A stretch of 64,000 bases of DNA from positions 62,001-126,000 of the forward strand of contig NZ_SJEE01000013.1 of assembly GCF_006937785.1 (NCBI RefSeq). The letters run 5' to 3'. The position numbers and the translations under genes were made by a program. The stretch comes from Pseudanabaena sp. UWO311 (GTDB lineage Bacteria > Cyanobacteriota > Cyanobacteriia > Pseudanabaenales > Pseudanabaenaceae). Under the pieces are notes generated by a model. The model worked only from the letters and a program-made list of their open reading frames with translations. It searched no databases and had not been told where the DNA came from. Below are positions 47,166 to 54,383 of the stretch, one piece after another. How positions within the stretch are numbered: position 1 is the first letter of the stretch; each line of letters begins with the position of its first letter.

Positions 47166-48128
47166 ATGTCCGTAGTCAATCAGCAAGAAGTTTTGGCAAG
47201 CTTTAAGGTTTTGGTAAGCATGGCAAAAGCCGACGGTAAACTGCTTGAAGAAGAGTTTTCCAGTCTTGCCGATACTTTTGAAGAAATCCATCTACCTGAA
47301 GGCGTTACCGTTGATCGCCTCTTGAATGAAGAAGATGAGCCAATCGATACATTATTGACCCAAATCACTAGCGAGATCGCGCAGGAGATGGTTTATCAGT
47401 CTGCCTATGCGATGGCAAATATCGATGGTGAGTGCAGTTCAGAAGAAAAAGAGCTTTTAGATAAAATTGGTTCAACTTTCACGAGTTCTAGGCTTTGGGG
47501 CAAACAAGAATGGCTGGAGACCCTAGAGCGTCGCTCCACCAAATCTTCTATCTCGGAACAGGTGCGTCAAATCGATGATCCTGATAAACGGGCAGCCGAG
47601 GTTGAAAGTGCGACTACCGATGCTTGTTTTTTGAATGCAGTTTTAGGTGCTTTCCCCATCCCTGGGATCGCGATCGCCTTCGATATGTTGATCTACTGGA
47701 ACCAACTTGATCTCGCTCAAGCGATCGGTCAAAGCTGGGGCTACGATCGCGCTAACGAAAATCTTCGCAAAGCCCTTTTTGGGAGTTTAGGAATCACTGG
47801 TACAAGGATCGCAGTTAGCAATCTAGCTAAACTTGTTCCTGTTTTTGGCATGGTAGTTGGTGCAACTACTGCTTATGCAAGTACATGGGCGCTTGGCAAA
47901 GTTGCCAACGAATACTATGCATCTGGTGGCGAAATGGATAGCTTTAGTCTCCGTCAAGCTTTTAAACAAGCGAAGAAAGAGGGTGAAGCTGTTTACAAAA
48001 CTAAAGCTGATGAAATTGCAGCGAAGAAACAAGCGATCGAGCCTCAAGTTCAGTTGCTAAATGAGGAGCTGAAAGCAGGAAGTATTACTCCTGAAGAATA
48101 TCAATTGAAGCTCAAAGAGCTGCTGTAA
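47166..48128 (+). CDS. TerB-like/DUF697 domain protein
   Basis: A 320-residue protein of unknown function. Residues about 5-110 form a TerB-like helical domain (MAKADGKLLEEEFSSLADTF, then AYAMANIDGECSSEEKELLDKI, the acidic repeats typical of TerB). Residues about 160-250 resemble DUF697 (VLGAFPIPGIAIAFDMLIYW, then NLAKLVPVFGMVVGATTAYAST), a hydrophobic helical-pair domain. The C-terminus is a charged helix with an end like short SHOCT domains (LKAGSITPEEYQLKLKELL). Divergent from clpB. GGAAAGGAG lies 5-13 bases before the ATG. Confidence 0.78.
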   Translation: MSVVNQQEVLASFKVLVSMAKADGKLLEEEFSSLADTFEEIHLPEGVTVDRLLNEEDEPIDTLLTQITSEIAQEMVYQSAYAMANIDGECSSEEKELLDKIGSTFTSSRLWGKQEWLETLERRSTKSSISEQVRQIDDPDKRAAEVESATTDACFLNAVLGAFPIPGIAIAFDMLIYWNQLDLAQAIGQSWGYDRANENLRKALFGSLGITGTRIAVSNLAKLVPVFGMVVGATTAYASTWALGKVANEYYASGGEMDSFSLRQAFKQAKKEGEAVYKTKADEIAAKKQAIEPQVQLLNEELKAGSITPEEYQLKLKELL

Positions 48129-48163
48129 AAGAAAAAGGGGCGAATGCGCCCCTTTTTCTTTTA
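48122..48163. terminator. Bidirectional terminator across both stop codons
   Basis: A 19-bp perfect stem (48122-48140 with 48145-48163, loop AATG), A-rich on one side and T-rich on the other. It includes the stop codon of the TerB gene (48126-48128) and that of the CopD-like gene (48161-48163). Confidence 0.92.
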
Positions 48164-48607
48164 CAAGAAACCACCGAGGCGAATTCCTGCGCCCAAAATA
48201 ACAAATAGAACAGCTAGTGTCGTCACTCCAACAATGTGATAAGCCAAGGAATTCAAAGTCTCTTTAGTAAGATTTGGAATGATAAAAAAGCGTGCATGAA
48301 TTGCCAAGGCGATCGTACCTGACAGAAGTAATAGTTTGATGCAGATATAAGTTGACAGATAAGAATCAAAGGCTAAGAAGTTCTGGAAATTCGGAAAATA
48401 AATCCATGTGAGCCATAGTCCTGTAGTCACCTGTAACAACAGTGCAGTCAGTCCAAATCCTTCAAAATGTTCTTCAAATTGATGAATGCGATCGGGATCG
48501 CGGTGCTTGAGTGCTTGAGGCAGAACGGTTACAGCCAATACCAGATGACCACCTGTCCAGACTGTGGCTCCTAAGATATGCAAAACAACTAAGATTTTAA
48601 ATAACAT
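48161..48607 (-). CDS. CopD-like integral membrane protein
   Basis: A 148-residue protein with four predicted helices, related to the copper-resistance D/DUF2269-like cytochrome-type membrane domain. The first helix has LVVLHILGATVWTGGHLVL with histidines of the type that bind haem or copper; FARFF-like IHARFFIIPN and a final LFVILGAGIRLGGFL follow. Start ATG 48607 matches the membrane fold; a TTG at 48649 would add 14 residues. It is the third gene of glbN-ric-copD, 67 bases after ric, so a link to nitrosative or metal stress is inferred. Confidence 0.72.
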   Translation of the reverse strand: MLFKILVVLHILGATVWTGGHLVLAVTVLPQALKHRDPDRIHQFEEHFEGFGLTALLLQVTTGLWLTWIYFPNFQNFLAFDSYLSTYICIKLLLLSGTIALAIHARFFIIPNLTKETLNSLAYHIVGVTTLAVLFVILGAGIRLGGFL

Positions 48608-48674
48608 TTTGTGATTTACAGGTGTAACCTGCCTTAGTCTAGGTTTCAAAAATACTGCGATCGCTTAATTCTGA

Positions 48675-49397
48675 TTAGCTCTGATTGGCTTTGACTTGCT
48701 CTAGCGCGATCGCTTTAGGAAACAGAATATTGTTTTCCTTATGAATATGTTGATGCATATCTTGCTCAAAGTTCAGCAAACCATCCAGCATGGCGCGATA
48801 GGTGTTGCAAGCCCATTCTGGAGGATTGTAATTATTAGTGAGTTGACACAACTGACCGAGGGCAACACCAGCTTCATCATGTTCAAATTCCATCTGATGC
48901 ACAGGATTTACGATAGTGCCGCAATGGAGAGAGGGAACTGTGGTGCTAGATTCTAACTGACGGATCATCGGGAATAAAATCTTCTCTTCTTTCTGCAAAT
49001 GCGTTTCCAGTTCTTGGGATACAGCAAGAAATATATCCTTGATTTGGTGCAATCGTGGTTCCTTTTCACCATGTACTGCCGCAACTTTAGTTACCATCTT
49101 TTCCAAACGAGGTAGCTCAGTATGCAGATAGGCATGATGAGTTTGTTCGATGTGGTCAGCTAGTTCGGTGAGGGATAAATTTGCTACGGTTATCTCAGGA
49201 TCTTCGGTTGAATTAGCGATCGCTTGGAGTTGGGAAAGAAATACTTGCGGATCAATACCTTGCTTATGACAAGCTTCCTCCAGAGACTTCTTGCCGCCAC
49301 AGCAATAGTCAACTTTGGCTTGTTCAAACAGACGAGAAAGGGAAGAGCGATCGCGAACAATTTGACCTACGGTGTCACTGATTTGCAAAGTTGTCAT
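48675..49397 (-). CDS. ric: Iron-sulfur cluster repair di-iron protein (RIC, ScdA/YtfE)
   Basis: A 240-residue protein that repairs Fe-S clusters damaged by nitric oxide or peroxide. The N-terminal ScdA domain carries the DYCCGGKKSLEEAC cysteine motif (about residues 30-43). The hemerythrin-like half gives the iron ligands from HIEQTHHAYLH, HLQKEEKILFPMI, MEFEHDEAG and HIHKENNILFP. Length matches YtfE/ScdA. It follows glbN on the same strand after 72 bases containing a short hairpin, so they are probably co-transcribed. Confidence 0.95.
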   Translation of the reverse strand: MTTLQISDTVGQIVRDRSSLSRLFEQAKVDYCCGGKKSLEEACHKQGIDPQVFLSQLQAIANSTEDPEITVANLSLTELADHIEQTHHAYLHTELPRLEKMVTKVAAVHGEKEPRLHQIKDIFLAVSQELETHLQKEEKILFPMIRQLESSTTVPSLHCGTIVNPVHQMEFEHDEAGVALGQLCQLTNNYNPPEWACNTYRAMLDGLLNFEQDMHQHIHKENNILFPKAIALEQVKANQS

Positions 49398-49435
49398 ATC
49401 TTTAAAATCTCAATTAATCTCATTTTTTATAAGTT

Positions 49436-49460
49436 CAAAGTGAGGCAAAGCCGCACTTTG
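49436..49460 (-). repeat. Short hairpin between glbN and ric
   Basis: CAAAGTGAGGC-AAA-GCCGCACTTTG, 11-bp stem with one mismatch, three-base loop. It may attenuate or stabilise the mRNA between the two genes. Confidence 0.65.
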
Positions 49461-49469
49461 AAAAAACAT

Positions 49470-49844
49470 CTAGCCGTTCAAGACATCTTTTTTATGTTGA
49501 GGCGCTGCCGCCACTGCTGCTACTTCTGCCAAGAGGTCATCATTTACTCCCATCTCTTTGAGGGTAATCATCAAATCTTCGGTAACAGCCTCAAAATGAT
49601 CGCTATTTAGACCCTGATTACTCACCAAATCTTTATGGGCTTGACGCATGTGATGACCGTCATATTTATCAGCACCGCCAAAAGCATAGGTGAGAAAAGC
49701 TTTTTGGTGATTTCTTTGCTTCACCATATCTGTATTTGCGAAAAAGTGTTTGATGCGATCATCCTGTAATACTCTTTCGTAGAATCGATCTACCGCTACG
49801 GCAACTGCTCCTGCGCCGCCGAGTTTTTCAAATAATGTTGTCAT
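49470..49844 (-). CDS. glbN: Group 1 truncated haemoglobin
   Basis: A 124-residue 2-on-2 globin of the cyanobacterial GlbN type. Positions match the studied Synechocystis/Synechococcus proteins: Y22 at B10, distal-side H46 (QRNHQKAF), proximal H70 (MRQAHKDL), and H117 (APQHKK), the residue that links covalently to the haem vinyl group in those proteins. It can bind O2 and NO and dioxygenate NO to nitrate; Synechococcus 7002 GlbN protects against reactive nitrogen (known). Located just upstream of ric on the same strand and behind an FNR-type palindrome. Confidence 0.96.
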   Translation of the reverse strand: MTTLFEKLGGAGAVAVAVDRFYERVLQDDRIKHFFANTDMVKQRNHQKAFLTYAFGGADKYDGHHMRQAHKDLVSNQGLNSDHFEAVTEDLMITLKEMGVNDDLLAEVAAVAAAPQHKKDVLNG

Positions 49845-49871
49845 TTGGTTTCTTTTTTGTCTTGTGAAACC

Positions 49872-49915
49872 AGCATAGGAGAAGATTAACGAAGAAGCCT
49901 TTGACTTAAGTCAAA
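49872..49915 (-). promoter_or_regulatory. Predicted FNR/DNR-type promoter of glbN-ric
   Basis: A perfect 16-bp palindrome TTTGACTTAAGTCAAA (49900-49915) fits the FNR/DNR box TTGAT-N4-ATCAA with one change per half (TTGAC-TTAA-GTCAA). On the minus strand a TATGCT -10-like hexamer lies at 49877-49872; the palindrome centre would then be about 42 bases before a start site near 49865, the classic position for activators of this family. It is 56 bases upstream of the glbN start codon. No clear -35 is seen, as expected. Confidence 0.7.
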
Positions 49916-49963
49916 TCCGACTTATATATACTTCCTTCCCAGTCTAAAAATAGACAGTCGGCC

Positions 49964-52900
49964 TTACATGGTATTAGATCTTAAGGTAGAAAATATCCGA
50001 ACTATATCTTGAATTTTAAAGGGCTTGCTCAGGTAATAATTCATCCCTGCTTCCAAACAAGCCTTACGATCCTCTGGCATTACATTTGCGGTTATTGCCA
50101 CGATCCACGGTTGATCCATAGAATTTTGGCGAATATGTCTGGTGGCGGTCAAGCCATCCATTTCTGGCATTTGTACATCCATTAACACCAAGTCGTAAAC
50201 TTTTTGTTGAACAGCCGCGATCGCCTCTAACCCATTGTTAGCAATATCGGCTTGATATCCTAATTTTTTAAGAGTAATACTGGCAATTTTTTGATTGAAG
50301 AGGTTGTCTTCTACTAACAAAATGCGGAGAGGAAATTTCTCAGACATATGGGTATCAATTTTGAGTTCATTGCTATCCAGTTTTGCGGTGTGAGGCGTTG
50401 AGAAGCTAGGCAATAGATCGATCTCAAAATGGAAGGTAGTGCCTTGTGAATCTAAGGTGGGTAGCCAATTTAATGGCGGATTACCACCAACATGACCGAG
50501 GCTTTCTGCCCAAATTGTACCTCCCATTAATTCTACTAAACGTTTAGTAATGGCTAAGCCCAGTCCTGTACCACCATATCTTCTACTGATCGAAGCATCG
50601 GCTTGAGTAAAGGCTTGAAAGAGTTCCGCTAGATATTCGTGCTGAATGCCTATGCCTGTATCACGCACGGCAAAGGTGAGTTTGTATGGCTCAGTTTTGT
50701 TATTAGGCGATTGACCACTAATAGCGATCGCTACATGACCACTTTGCGTAAATTTAATGGCATTGCCAATTAGGTTTAGTAGGATTTGGTGGAGTCGCGT
50801 ACTATCACCAATAAATTTGCTGGGAAGATGGGAAGCGATCGCATAATTGAGTTGGATCTGCTTATCTAAGGCTTGTTTGTTTAAAAGCTTGCATACAGAC
50901 GACAAAATATCATCTAAAACAAATTCCTTAGCTTCTAGTGTCATCATCCCTGCTTCGATTTTAGAGAAATCAAGGATATCGTTGACGATCGCTAGTAAGG
51001 TATCTCCACTATCTTGAATAATTTGGACAAGATTTTGCTGTTCTGCGGTCAAATTAGTGGCGGAAAGTAATTCTGCTATACCCAATACACCATTCATCGG
51101 TGTCCGTAGCTCATGACTCATATTTGCCAGAAAATTACTCTTAGCCTTTGCCGCCGCTTCTGCATCTTCCTTCGCTTTGGCGAGTTCTATTTCGGCTAGC
51201 TTGCGATCGCTAATATCAATACAGGAACCGATATAACCTAAAAATTCTCCATTAGCATCAAATCGCGGTACACCTGTATCTAGAAGCCAGCGATATTCGC
51301 CATCAAATCGTCTGAGGCGATACTCCATCTCAAACTTTTGACGGGCTTCAAAGGCTTGGACATAGGTATCTAAGCAAAATTGCAAATCATCAGGATGCAC
51401 ACCCTCAGCCCACCCATTCCCATATTCCTGCTCTGTCGTTCGCCCAGTGAAGTCTAACCAACTCTTGTTAAAGTGGTAACAGAGCTTATCTAATCCAGCT
51501 AGCCAAATTAAGACTGGGGCATGATCTGCCAATTGTTGAAATCTAGATTCGCTTTCACGCAATGCAATTTCATTTTGCTTTCGCTCCGTAATATCTCTAG
51601 CAAATTGAATCACTTTATCTTCAGATATAGGTGAGATATTGGCATCAAACCAAATTTCTTTACCATTAATATCTAAACTATATTCACAACTTACGATTTT
51701 TTTGGTTGCTAAAGCTTCTCTAGTTGCCTTCACAATAATTTCAGCGACTGACCAAGGAAGTTCTTCATAAATAGACTTACTTATCACTTCTTTAAGAGTG
51801 CCCAACAAATTTGTGGTTTTAGTAGTAACGACTTTGAGACAAGTTCCTTCAGCATTACGAACTAAAACCACATCACTCATGGCTGCAAATAGCGCATTCT
51901 GCTCCTCATAGGCTTCTCTTAGTTTAGCTTTACTTTCTTTTAAGGCAAATTCAGCACGTTTGCGATCGCTAATATCCACATGGGTACCAAGAAATCGCAA
52001 GGGAGCGCCATCGGCGACGCGACTAATAATCTTTCCCCTTGACAAGATCCATTTATAACTACCATCTTTGCATTGAAGACGATGTTCGATCTCGAATTGG
52101 CTGGTTTCACCAAGAGAATGTTTATCAATCTCTGCATAAGCATTCTCAAGATCTTCTGGATGAACGCGAATATGCCATTCGTTAAAATCGTTATTAATTT
52201 CGCTATCTTCAAATCCAAGCATAGCTTTCCAGCGAGGAGAGAAGAAGACCTCATTAGTTTGTACGTTCCAGTCCCAAACGCCGTCCCCACTGCTTTCGAG
52301 CGCAAACTGCCTACGTTCGGCATCAACTTTGAGGATATATTCTTTCTGTTTACGCTCGGTAATATCTTCAAATATGTATAATCTGCCAAAATATCGATCT
52401 TGGAGATCGCGAATTTGCTTAGAAAAGCGGCGAATTATACGCTGGTCTACAAATGGAATTTCATCTTCAATAGTGATGCGATTTTCTTCACTCTGTAACG
52501 GTTTACAGGATTCAATAAAAGCAGATAAATTAGCGATTAAGGGAATGCAATCAGGAATAATATCGTTGTTTTTCAGTTCCCCACTTTGCATTCTCGCTTC
52601 TAAATGCTCAATATTCCAAATCTCACAAAAATAATGGTTAAAGTAGAGAATCTTATCAGTGCGGTTGTCTACCACAAAAAAGGCGAGTGGCGATGCCTCG
52701 GACATTGTTTGTAATAGGACTTCTTGCCAGAGTAGTTCTGGCTCAAATTGGCGATATTCTGTCGAGTTAGATACTGACTGCGTAGTTGATAAAGGGATTT
52801 TGGGTTGGTTTGTGATTAATATCTGAAATTTGGAACTCCCTAGCGCGATTCCTAATTGAGTTGCGATGTTATGGAGTAGACTGATTTCTGAAGGTTGCCA

Positions 52901-53374
52901 ATAACGGGGGCGATCGCATTGATGGACAATCAGCAAACCAAATAGATGCGGTTGCGAACCAACCAAGATTGGCATAACTAGATTTGCTCTTACCTGCATC
53001 CTTGCTAACAAATTTGCATAACATGGCTCCATTAGCTTAGTATGCGTATCTTCGATAACGCTAAATTTACCTTCTTGATAAAGCTGAGCATATTTGCTGG
53101 CAAAGCAAGGATCGCCAATTAATTCCCCAACAATTGCAGTCCACCCCTCACCCACTGACTCAGCCATCACCACGCCATCGCCATCGGAAAGAAACTGATA
53201 TATTAATGCGCGATCGCATCCCAGCAGATCTCTTGTCTGTTGAACAACAACGTTCAACAGATCGTTCAAATTTGAGGCATTACTAATCTCTAAAGATAAC
53301 GATATAATACGCTCTAAAATTTCTGCTAAATGATTTTCAGTCGCATCGTTTAATGGCATTGTAACGCCCATCAC
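49964..53374 (-). CDS. Hybrid histidine kinase: cyanobacteriochrome-like GAF-PAS4-HisKA-HATPase-REC
   Basis: A 1136-residue soluble kinase. The GAF domain (about 20-195) has cyanobacteriochrome marks: DPCF at 88-91, the DXCF motif whose cysteine can bind the bilin a second time, and C118 in [21 protein letters not shown] at the canonical chromophore site. The usual Cys-His there is Cys-Tyr (C118-Y119). Four PAS domains (about 215-345, 350-475, 485-600, 605-735) follow, then H754 ([11 protein letters not shown]), the ATPase domain and a receiver with D1066 ([13 protein letters not shown]). Light sensing is predicted, not proven. It ends 120 bases upstream of glbN on the same strand. Confidence 0.92.
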
Positions 53375-53687
53375 GTAGCTGTTTCATACTTAGACTATAC
53401 CAGATATTCTCTATCGCGGTTTTCATATCACCTTTTCCTTGAACGCTTTATTTGATTGCTAGATTTAGACCTTACCTTGATTAAATCTCACCCTGATTTT
53501 CATAAGCTTTGCTCTTATAGCTCCATTTCTAGCTAACTTTGTCCTTAGTATTGATTTACAGCAATTTCTGATCAAACGAACCACGAGGAAAAATCTGAAA
53601 GCTTTGCAAAGCAATGTTTTCAGATTTTTCCTCGGTTTGGGTTTGATCGCAAAGCGCTGTAAGCTATGCCATAAATTTTTGAATGAA
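53375..53687. other. 313-base divergent gap with an extended hairpin
   Basis: Between the divergent GAF kinase and Crp/Fnr genes, so it should hold both promoters. 53375-53569 shows no gene or recognisable RNA; TTGATTTACAGCAA at 53552 is a weak half-match to an FNR box. The remainder is the palindrome at 53570. Confidence 0.5.
53570..53648. repeat. 31-bp imperfect inverted repeat, CTTTGC loop
   Basis: Perfect inner arms 53585-53600 and 53618-53633 (GAGGAAAAATCTGAAA and complement) extend with a few mismatches to 53570 and 53648. The 17-base loop holds GCTTTGCAAAGC, itself palindromic. It is 40 bases before the regulator's start codon, so it is probably in its leader. Confidence 0.85.
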
Positions 53688-54383
53688 ATGTTAAATAGAA
53701 CAGAGTTAAGTAGTTGGCTTCAAATGATTCTTATTTTTCGAGGATTGTCATCGGAGCAACTGATGCCTTTAGCCCAAATCGCTCAACTGCAAAAATTTCA
53801 AAAAGGAGAGATGATCTTTTTTCAAGATAGTGTGGCGACAGGATTTTTTGCAGTCCAAACGGGGCGGGTCAAGGTATTTAAAATGGCATCTAATGGCAAA
53901 GAACAAATCTTACATTTGCTCAACATATGTGATTACTTTGCTGAGGTTCCCGCCCTTGACGGCAAAGCTTTTCCAGCATCAGCGATCGCATTGGAATATA
54001 CAGAATTAATCTTCTTTCCTCGGCTTCCATTTCTGGATTTACTTCACCAATATCCTGCGATCGCTATCAATATGTTGATGAGTCTAGCGAACCACGCACG
54101 CAAACTAGCGCATATGGTCGAAGAACTATCATGCAAAGATGTACCGCAAAGACTAGCATCCTATCTATTAGATTTAAGCGATCGCGAAAATCAGGCTAAT
54201 GTCATTACTTTAGATGTCACTAAAACTCAACTAGCTGCGACTTTGGGGACAATTCCCGCCACCCTATCTAGAGCATTGTATCGCCTGAGCCATGAAGGAT
54301 TAATTGCAATTAATGGTTCACAAATAGAATTGTTAGATCGAGATCGTTTACAAGATGCCAGCGATTACAGACATGAAGCTTAA
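53688..54383 (+). CDS. Crp/Fnr-family regulator, DNR-like
   Basis: A 231-residue regulator with an N-terminal cyclic-nucleotide-binding-type beta barrel (about 12-125; FQKGEMIFFQDSVATGFFAVQTGRVKVF), a long dimer helix and a C-terminal winged HTH (about 170-225; TKTQLAATLGTIPATLSRALYRL recognition region). It lacks the N-terminal cysteine cluster of oxygen-sensing FNR. The pattern (FFAVQTGRVKVF, NICDYFAEVPAL, LASYLLDL, IPATLSRAL) resembles DNR-type NO regulators, which sense NO by haem. ATG 53688 is chosen; the longer frame from 53604 crosses a palindrome. Likely regulator of glbN-ric (inference). Confidence 0.85.
   Translation: MLNRTELSSWLQMILIFRGLSSEQLMPLAQIAQLQKFQKGEMIFFQDSVATGFFAVQTGRVKVFKMASNGKEQILHLLNICDYFAEVPALDGKAFPASAIALEYTELIFFPRLPFLDLLHQYPAIAINMLMSLANHARKLAHMVEELSCKDVPQRLASYLLDLSDRENQANVITLDVTKTQLAATLGTIPATLSRALYRLSHEGLIAINGSQIELLDRDRLQDASDYRHEA

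Follow-up and report, generated by a model that had tools for sequence, protein, structure and literature searches.

Which regulator switches on the globin gene glbN and its neighbours in Pseudanabaena sp. UWO311, and do these genes serve the defence against nitric oxide (NO)? The question is raised by a stretch of 64,000 nt of this genome, called the window below. A sequence-only reading had proposed an NO regulon there, in which glbN, ric and a CopD-like gene run in series on the minus strand, a perfect 16-bp palindrome precedes glbN, and a Crp/Fnr gene lies 3.8 kb from the palindrome. All of these elements were recovered, the genes by coordinates and family models, the palindrome by its exact sequence, and the regulator by its cNMP_binding and HTH_Crp_2 domains. 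Comparison with other cyanobacterial loci indicates that glbN-ric-copD is likely under class II activation by an HcpR-like regulator and would act in NO defence. The elements concerned are as follows.

49900-49915, no strand assigned: operator, 16-bp palindrome TTTGACTTAAGTCAAA; exact sequence, conserved in relatives
49872-49877, minus strand: predicted -10 box TATGCT, 22 bases behind the operator; from the TANNNT spacing across loci
49470-49844, minus strand: glbN, group I truncated haemoglobin (cyanoglobin); Bac_globin above cut-off
48675-49397, minus strand: ric, Fe-S cluster repair di-iron protein; TIGR03652 (FeS_repair_RIC) above cut-off
48161-48607 (TTG start possible at 48649), minus strand: CopD-like membrane protein; Pfam CopD, marginal
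53688-54383, plus strand: Crp/Fnr-type regulator, HcpR-like, of the norB/glbN type; domains, relatives and tree, start from relatives

Operator and co-occurrence with the regulator

The site at 49900-49915 is the sole exact match to TTGACN4GTCAA in the window. In the whole genome four exact copies of this pattern were counted, below the seven of the reversed control; the remaining three lie inside open reading frames (ORFs), and thus the site before glbN is the only intergenic exact copy. The counts of the loose motif did not exceed the controls: with up to two mismatches it occurred at chance level in the window (37 matches versus 31.6 in shuffles). The strict 14-mer TTGACTTAAGTCAA was found once in this genome and not at all in the reversed control. 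For TTGACTTAAGTCAA with up to two mismatches 44 places were obtained (control 23), and for a relaxed box-plus-spacing pattern nine (control 4); among these places membership is claimed for glbN only.

In the class, TTGACTTAAGTCAA was present in 50 of 388 genomes, its reversed control in seven. With regulator presence called at E ≤1e-20, both box and regulator were found in 41 genomes, the box only in 9, the regulator only in 23 and neither in 315 (Fisher p about 4e-30; the co-occurrence p values take no account of kinship between genomes). The genomes with the reversed control showed no such link, the regulator being present in one of seven. Of the nine boxed genomes without regulator, three have the box in an ORF and one has it ahead of norB-ric-copD. 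In another it stands at the end of a contig and shows the -10 spacing of the other loci, and in the remaining four it lies between genes without a known link. One norB-regulator stretch (L234) contains two exact boxes (5634 and 5861). The operator, common to many cyanobacteria, and its link to a nearby regulator are well supported by this sequence comparison.

The earlier proposal depended on conservation of the palindrome before glbN in relatives, and this was borne out. A box with no or one mismatch was located within 300 bases of glbN in 15 of 21 cases in genomes with the regulator and in none of ten in genomes without it; 31 of 72 glbN places entered this test (32 had stored loci, and L060 was dropped without a start). 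For five of the six unboxed glbN genes in regulator genomes, the box stands before a norB gene, or a remnant of one, that precedes glbN (G246, G192, G222, G088, G250). The sixth, in G318, has no box, though this genome has the regulator. Within the genus (26 genomes) glbN and regulator occurred together in 15 genomes, glbN only in two, neither in nine and the regulator only in none. The class-wide association was looser (both 31, glbN only 40, regulator only 33, neither 284, p 7e-10), because half of the regulators of this family act on hcp, and such a regulator is missing for many glbN genes.

Promoter layout

Class II activators of the Crp/Fnr family bind with the site centre near -41.5 and need no -35 element. 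On the target side of the 16-bp box, TANNNT was found 21 or 22 bases behind it in 65 of 66 non-redundant pairs. The first set alone gave 52 of 53 pairs and was then joined with a second set of 52 pairs. From the combined set near-copies were dropped (at least 36 of 45 downstream bases identical, or fewer than 45 bases available), leaving 66 target-side and 59 regulator-side pairs. Shuffled flanks showed this spacing in 3.3 pairs on average and in at most 10 in 1000 rounds. On the regulator side it was absent from all 59 pairs. Divided by target gene, the spacing was present for hcp in 31/32, norB in 19/19, norB fragments in 3/3, glbN in 11/11 and ric in 1/1 pairs.

The box of the window has no mismatch in 16 bp, and its TATGCT is the same as in relatives. 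The estimate that the palindrome lies about 42 bases from a predicted start agrees with this layout, as the start predicted from TATGCT (49877-49872) falls about 41-42 bases from the box centre. The fixed -10 spacing thus places the centre near -41.5, and from sequence the fixed, one-sided arrangement is that of a directional class II activator with a predicted start site. In a plain consensus scan, no sigma-70-type site was detected at glbN and no terminator in 48050-50050.

Gene products of the locus

The best solved relatives of GlbN are the Synechocystis-type cyanoglobins 1s69 and 1mwb; with these and the passed Bac_globin cut-off, it belongs to the group I truncated haemoglobins. Ric scored 248 bits with TIGR03652 (cut-off 205), carries ScdA_N and Hemerythrin domains and matches the YtfE structure 5fnn (E 2e-34), placing it in the RIC/YtfE family. 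The CopD-like protein passed Pfam CopD marginally (33.3, cut-off 32.1) and failed the NCBIfam copper_CopD cut-off (44.6 bits versus 195).

The regulator more likely starts at the ATG at 53688, where its relatives begin, than at the TTG at 53604. The resulting form of 231 amino acids (aa) has no N-terminal cysteine cluster for an FNR-type [4Fe-4S] centre, as the sequence-only reading had stated. In a sequence search against solved structures, two Ruegeria entries and DNR were best (92 and 90 bits), and Porphyromonas gingivalis HcpR reached 47 bits. A Crp-family fold is seen in the predicted structure of the regulator (mean pLDDT 87.8, pTM 0.61), which matches DNR and HcpR among many others. The fold search cannot separate HcpR from DNR, because many Crp-family structures match at low TM-scores (0.38-0.57 among the 50 matches listed).

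In a tree of 108 rows, 41 rows standing beside norB, glbN or no key gene formed one group (SH-aLRT 98). The hcp-neighbour rows lie outside this group, and the rows of deltaproteobacteria and related bacteria fall outside those of cyanobacteria. The tree comes from a quick short search with midpoint root and holds no DNR, NnrR or slr0449 rows; regulators below 200 aa were removed, as were rows whose C-terminal 190 residues were identical. Row L184 is too distant for true membership. Ten deltaproteobacterial or related loci were compared (43-50% identity), and hcp was within the fetched stretch in one of them. Residues 180 and 181 are given in the numbering of CRP, which we take to apply through alignment of the helix motif. 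At the position of CRP Glu181, Ala was found in 35 of 36 norB/glbN-type rows and Glu in 42 of 42 hcp-type rows; norB/glbN-type regulators below 220 aa, hcp-type regulators below 210 aa and rows with neighbour 'none' are left out of these counts. The window regulator keeps Pro at 180 and has Ala at 181, and thus departs from the HcpR1 residue rule (Ser/Pro 180, Glu 181).

Operon variants and history

Two further features lie between the operator and the regulator gene.

49964-53374, minus strand: hybrid histidine kinase (GAF, PAS, HisKA, HATPase, receiver), 1136 aa; domain search
49929-53659, no strand assigned: kinase-bearing segment between operator and regulator; blastn breakpoints against the two nearest relatives

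The kinase gene is absent from the account of the sequence-only reading. In 13 of the 14 other loci of the genus the regulator gene adjoins the box at a distance of 26-253 bases; in L107 a different gene lies between them, and none of the 14 carries a kinase in this place. By blastn, the match of the window to its two nearest relatives stops at 49928 and restarts at 53660 or 53662, the relatives having 98 and 107 bases there. Within the rest of the taxonomic order, the best partial matches of the kinase were 64% over residues 393-1135 (G124) and 80% over 727-1130 (G151). At the place of the kinase segment, between box and regulator, the two nearest relatives (L105:6900-7440 and L106:8400-8942) contain long GC-rich hairpin-like inverted repeats. 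The nearest named loci, among the matches listed and with records of the window genome possibly excluded, belong to Phormidium tenue FACHB-1050 and Pseudanabaena species; the named locus set comprises the best 80 matches, and its strains overlap with those of the genome collection.

Operons of the first, norB/glbN type combine norB, glbN, ric, the CopD-like gene, alternative oxidase, a YwiC-like gene and a cupin. The alternative oxidase gene was seen within boxed norB/glbN operons in L114, L127, L130 and L166 (by Pfam in L130, by cluster elsewhere). Behind the box, norB-glbN-ric was found in L117 and L185. In L114:8841-9900, from a metagenome-assembled genome, NorB residues 1-42 are joined directly to 748-766, followed by cupin and glbN; judged from its sequence, this is a loss of norB with the switch retained, unless it is an assembly fault. 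No clear norB remnants were seen before glbN in the window, L113, L105, L115, L110 and L128. The operon of the window probably descends from a norB-glbN-ric operon after loss of norB, and the kinase-bearing segment probably entered later, between operator and regulator gene. The genome of the window gave no match for norB and no Prismane match for hcp. Since it also lacks a second convincing box, the glbN-ric-copD operon is probably the whole regulon of this genome.

Comparison with known regulators

In 2005, Rodionov et al. predicted HcpR sites of the form TTGACnnnnGTCAA before hcp of Anabaena variabilis and before norB of Synechocystis, with slr0449 as regulator, and detected no further sites of this kind in the two genomes (PMC1274295). 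This regulator was named dnr in a mutant survey (PMC5318462). The sequence-only reading had regarded such NO circuits as poorly described in cyanobacteria. The 2005 prediction covers both motif and regulator, and hence the circuit is not undescribed. Like the predicted regulon, the window has a divergent Crp/Fnr gene, the operator TTGACnnnnGTCAA and an NO-related target (PMC1274295). The regulator has the Crp/Fnr domain set of HcpR1 and the operator stands before the target, whereas an hcp target in the same genome is missing. Further differences from the predicted cyanobacterial HcpR were noted: the targets are glbN-ric-copD, the genome having neither norB nor hcp; most copies of the operator have TTAA as spacer; a class II -10 spacing could be shown; Ala replaces Glu at CRP-181; and the kinase segment separates operator and regulator. 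The locus is thus an HcpR-like switch, predicted before for norB and hcp, here placed on glbN-ric-copD; new are the globin target, the promoter layout and the history.

Pseudomonas aeruginosa DNR (3dkw) is the second-best kind of solved relative (90 bits) and a fold match. It likewise has no FNR cysteines, and norB targets are found in the sister loci of the window. The DNR box is described as similar to TTGATnnnnATCAA, whereas the window box TTGACTTAAGTCAA is of the TTGACnnnnGTCAA type (PMC1274295). Furthermore, no denitrification operon with norB was found here; nir and nos were not searched for. By plain sequence score the regulator is nearer to DNR than to P. gingivalis HcpR, although motif and regulator fit the HcpR prediction. 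P. gingivalis HcpR (9day) shares the Crp-type fold and an NO response of NO-defence genes (PMC12750200). In contrast to this likeness, it reached 47 bits only, and its proposed haem ligand Met68 could be matched to no conserved residue here. Its haem ligands are unsettled, with Met68 likely and His149 unclear (PMC12750200), and the operator of this HcpR2 branch differs from that of the window (PMC1274295). In Legionella pneumophila a cyanoglobin gene is also the predicted target of an NO-related regulator, NsrR (PMC1274295, PMC3820574); however, NsrR belongs to the Rrf2 family, has another motif, and the partner gene encodes a ferredoxin reductase.

Radiation co-induces adjacent norB and glbN in Limnospira, and the authors urge study of the upstream regions (PMC8400943). 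A norB-dnrN operon was reported for one Thermosynechococcus (PMC7005997). Among titles and abstracts after 2005 nothing on the regulon in cyanobacteria was found, most subscription journals being outside this search.

Two regulator types and a second promoter element

Two regulator types use one box, the first with norB, glbN, ric and copD as targets, the second with hcp. The box is identical for both despite the change between Ala and Glu at the CRP-181 position; Rodionov et al. relate this position to half-site base A6 (PMC1274295). Genome G109 holds both types, each adjoining an exact box (L126, L142), and cross-talk is therefore likely there.

A second element was seen in the flanks of norB/glbN-type boxes (L105-L240). 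In the 36 promoters of this type that were kept after thinning, conservation extends from column -27 to column -6 upstream of the box and reads approximately AAAnTTAAGnATnTTTTAAGG, a direct repeat with a period of 11 bases. At three levels of thinning, the summed information in the upstream columns exceeded within-row shuffles by 23 to 40 standard deviations, and by 5 to 8 for the hcp type. TTAAG-N6-TTAAG, with at least 8 of 10 bases, was found in 22 of 36 norB/glbN-type promoters, 19 of them at one offset (shuffles 1.3, maximum 5), and in two of 34 hcp-type promoters. The window retains only the part near the box (49916-49928), because the foreign segment starts 14 bases from the box. The two nearest relatives are also poor matches.

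Cyanobacterial Pho boxes consist of 8-base repeats (CTTAACCT) with 3-base linkers (PMC1906773). By this analogy, it is possible that a response regulator of the Pho-box class acts at the upstream element; contact of the C-terminal domain of the RNA polymerase alpha subunit upstream of a class II activator would be the plain alternative. A wider interpretation is offered tentatively and is rated as possible rather than probable: cyanobacteria would have two paralogous NO regulators, the hcp type with Glu and a derived norB/glbN type with Ala, which share an operator and so break the published residue-base rule. Promoters of the derived type would add the rigid TTAAG-N6-TTAAG for a second regulator, perhaps of the OmpR/PhoB type, or for a dedicated polymerase contact, and the kinase segment would have cut this element in the window lineage.

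Proposed mechanism and alternatives

The product of 53688-54383 would act as an HcpR-like activator and bind as a dimer to the palindrome at 49900-49915. From this class II position it would recruit RNA polymerase to the TATGCT promoter, which would need no -35 of its own, and activation would switch on glbN, ric and the CopD-like gene. The signal would be NO, presumably sensed through a haem of the regulator, for which His136 in the long helix (231-aa numbering), kept in 73 of 78 rows, is a candidate ligand. GlbN would remove NO and Ric would mend Fe-S clusters; the CopD-like protein may have some membrane role. The comparison shows the conserved box, the fixed -10 spacing, the co-occurrence with the regulator and the direction towards the target and not the regulator. 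NO as the signal is inferred from the target genes and by analogy with HcpR and DNR. As a whole, class II activation of glbN-ric-copD in NO defence is considered to have a high probability.

Several observations weigh against it. The exact 14-mer is missing from 23 of 64 regulator genomes, some of which hold one-mismatch forms, and in four of the nine boxed genomes without regulator the box lies between unrelated genes. The regulator is missing from 40 of 71 glbN genomes. Among 78 cyanobacterial regulators no His or Cys is invariant. Neither ric nor copD is constant, as the nearest relatives carry glbN-copD (L105) or glbN alone (L106). Furthermore, GlbN of Synechococcus protects against NO, yet was reported not to be NO-inducible (PMC3820574), and Synechocystis GlbN can form NO from nitrite without oxygen (PMC10830646).

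With regulator and box acting as described, the signal could instead be low oxygen or the redox state, and the locus part of an anaerobic programme. Synechocystis norB is up in far-red and low-oxygen conditions (PMC10830646), and three Acaryochloris genomes have an exact box between genes for a pyruvate formate-lyase and an acyl-CoA ligase (L187:6044, L189:5964, L190:5965). These boxes, however, show no clear -10 spacing, the regulator lacks the N-terminal FNR cysteine cluster, and the box-neighbour genes of both regulator types (norB, glbN, ric, hcp) are NO-related by family; such a signal appears unlikely. The inserted kinase gene precedes glbN on the same strand at a distance of 119 bases, and since no terminator-like site was found in 48050-50050, read-through from it is possible. 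That glbN-ric-copD is mostly transcribed in this way and the box is a relic is nevertheless judged very unlikely, as box and TATGCT are unaltered and the terminator scan was a plain consensus scan. Control of glbN by the nitrogen regulator NtcA, with the palindrome incidental, was reported for Nostoc UTEX 584 as far as glbN is concerned (PMC8400943, citing Hill 1996). For the window it can be given hardly any weight: none of the six matches to GTAN8TAC is near glbN, and conservation of the box tracks the Crp/Fnr regulator.

Significance

NO sensing and response in cyanobacteria have been little tested. The comparison yields a sharp class-wide prediction that names operator, promoter spacing, target genes and residues. 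Some cyanobacterial glbN genes, whose role is debated, are now tied to an NO-type regulator. The history of the locus suggests a route by which an NO-reductase operon may turn into an NO-oxidising operon behind an unchanged switch.

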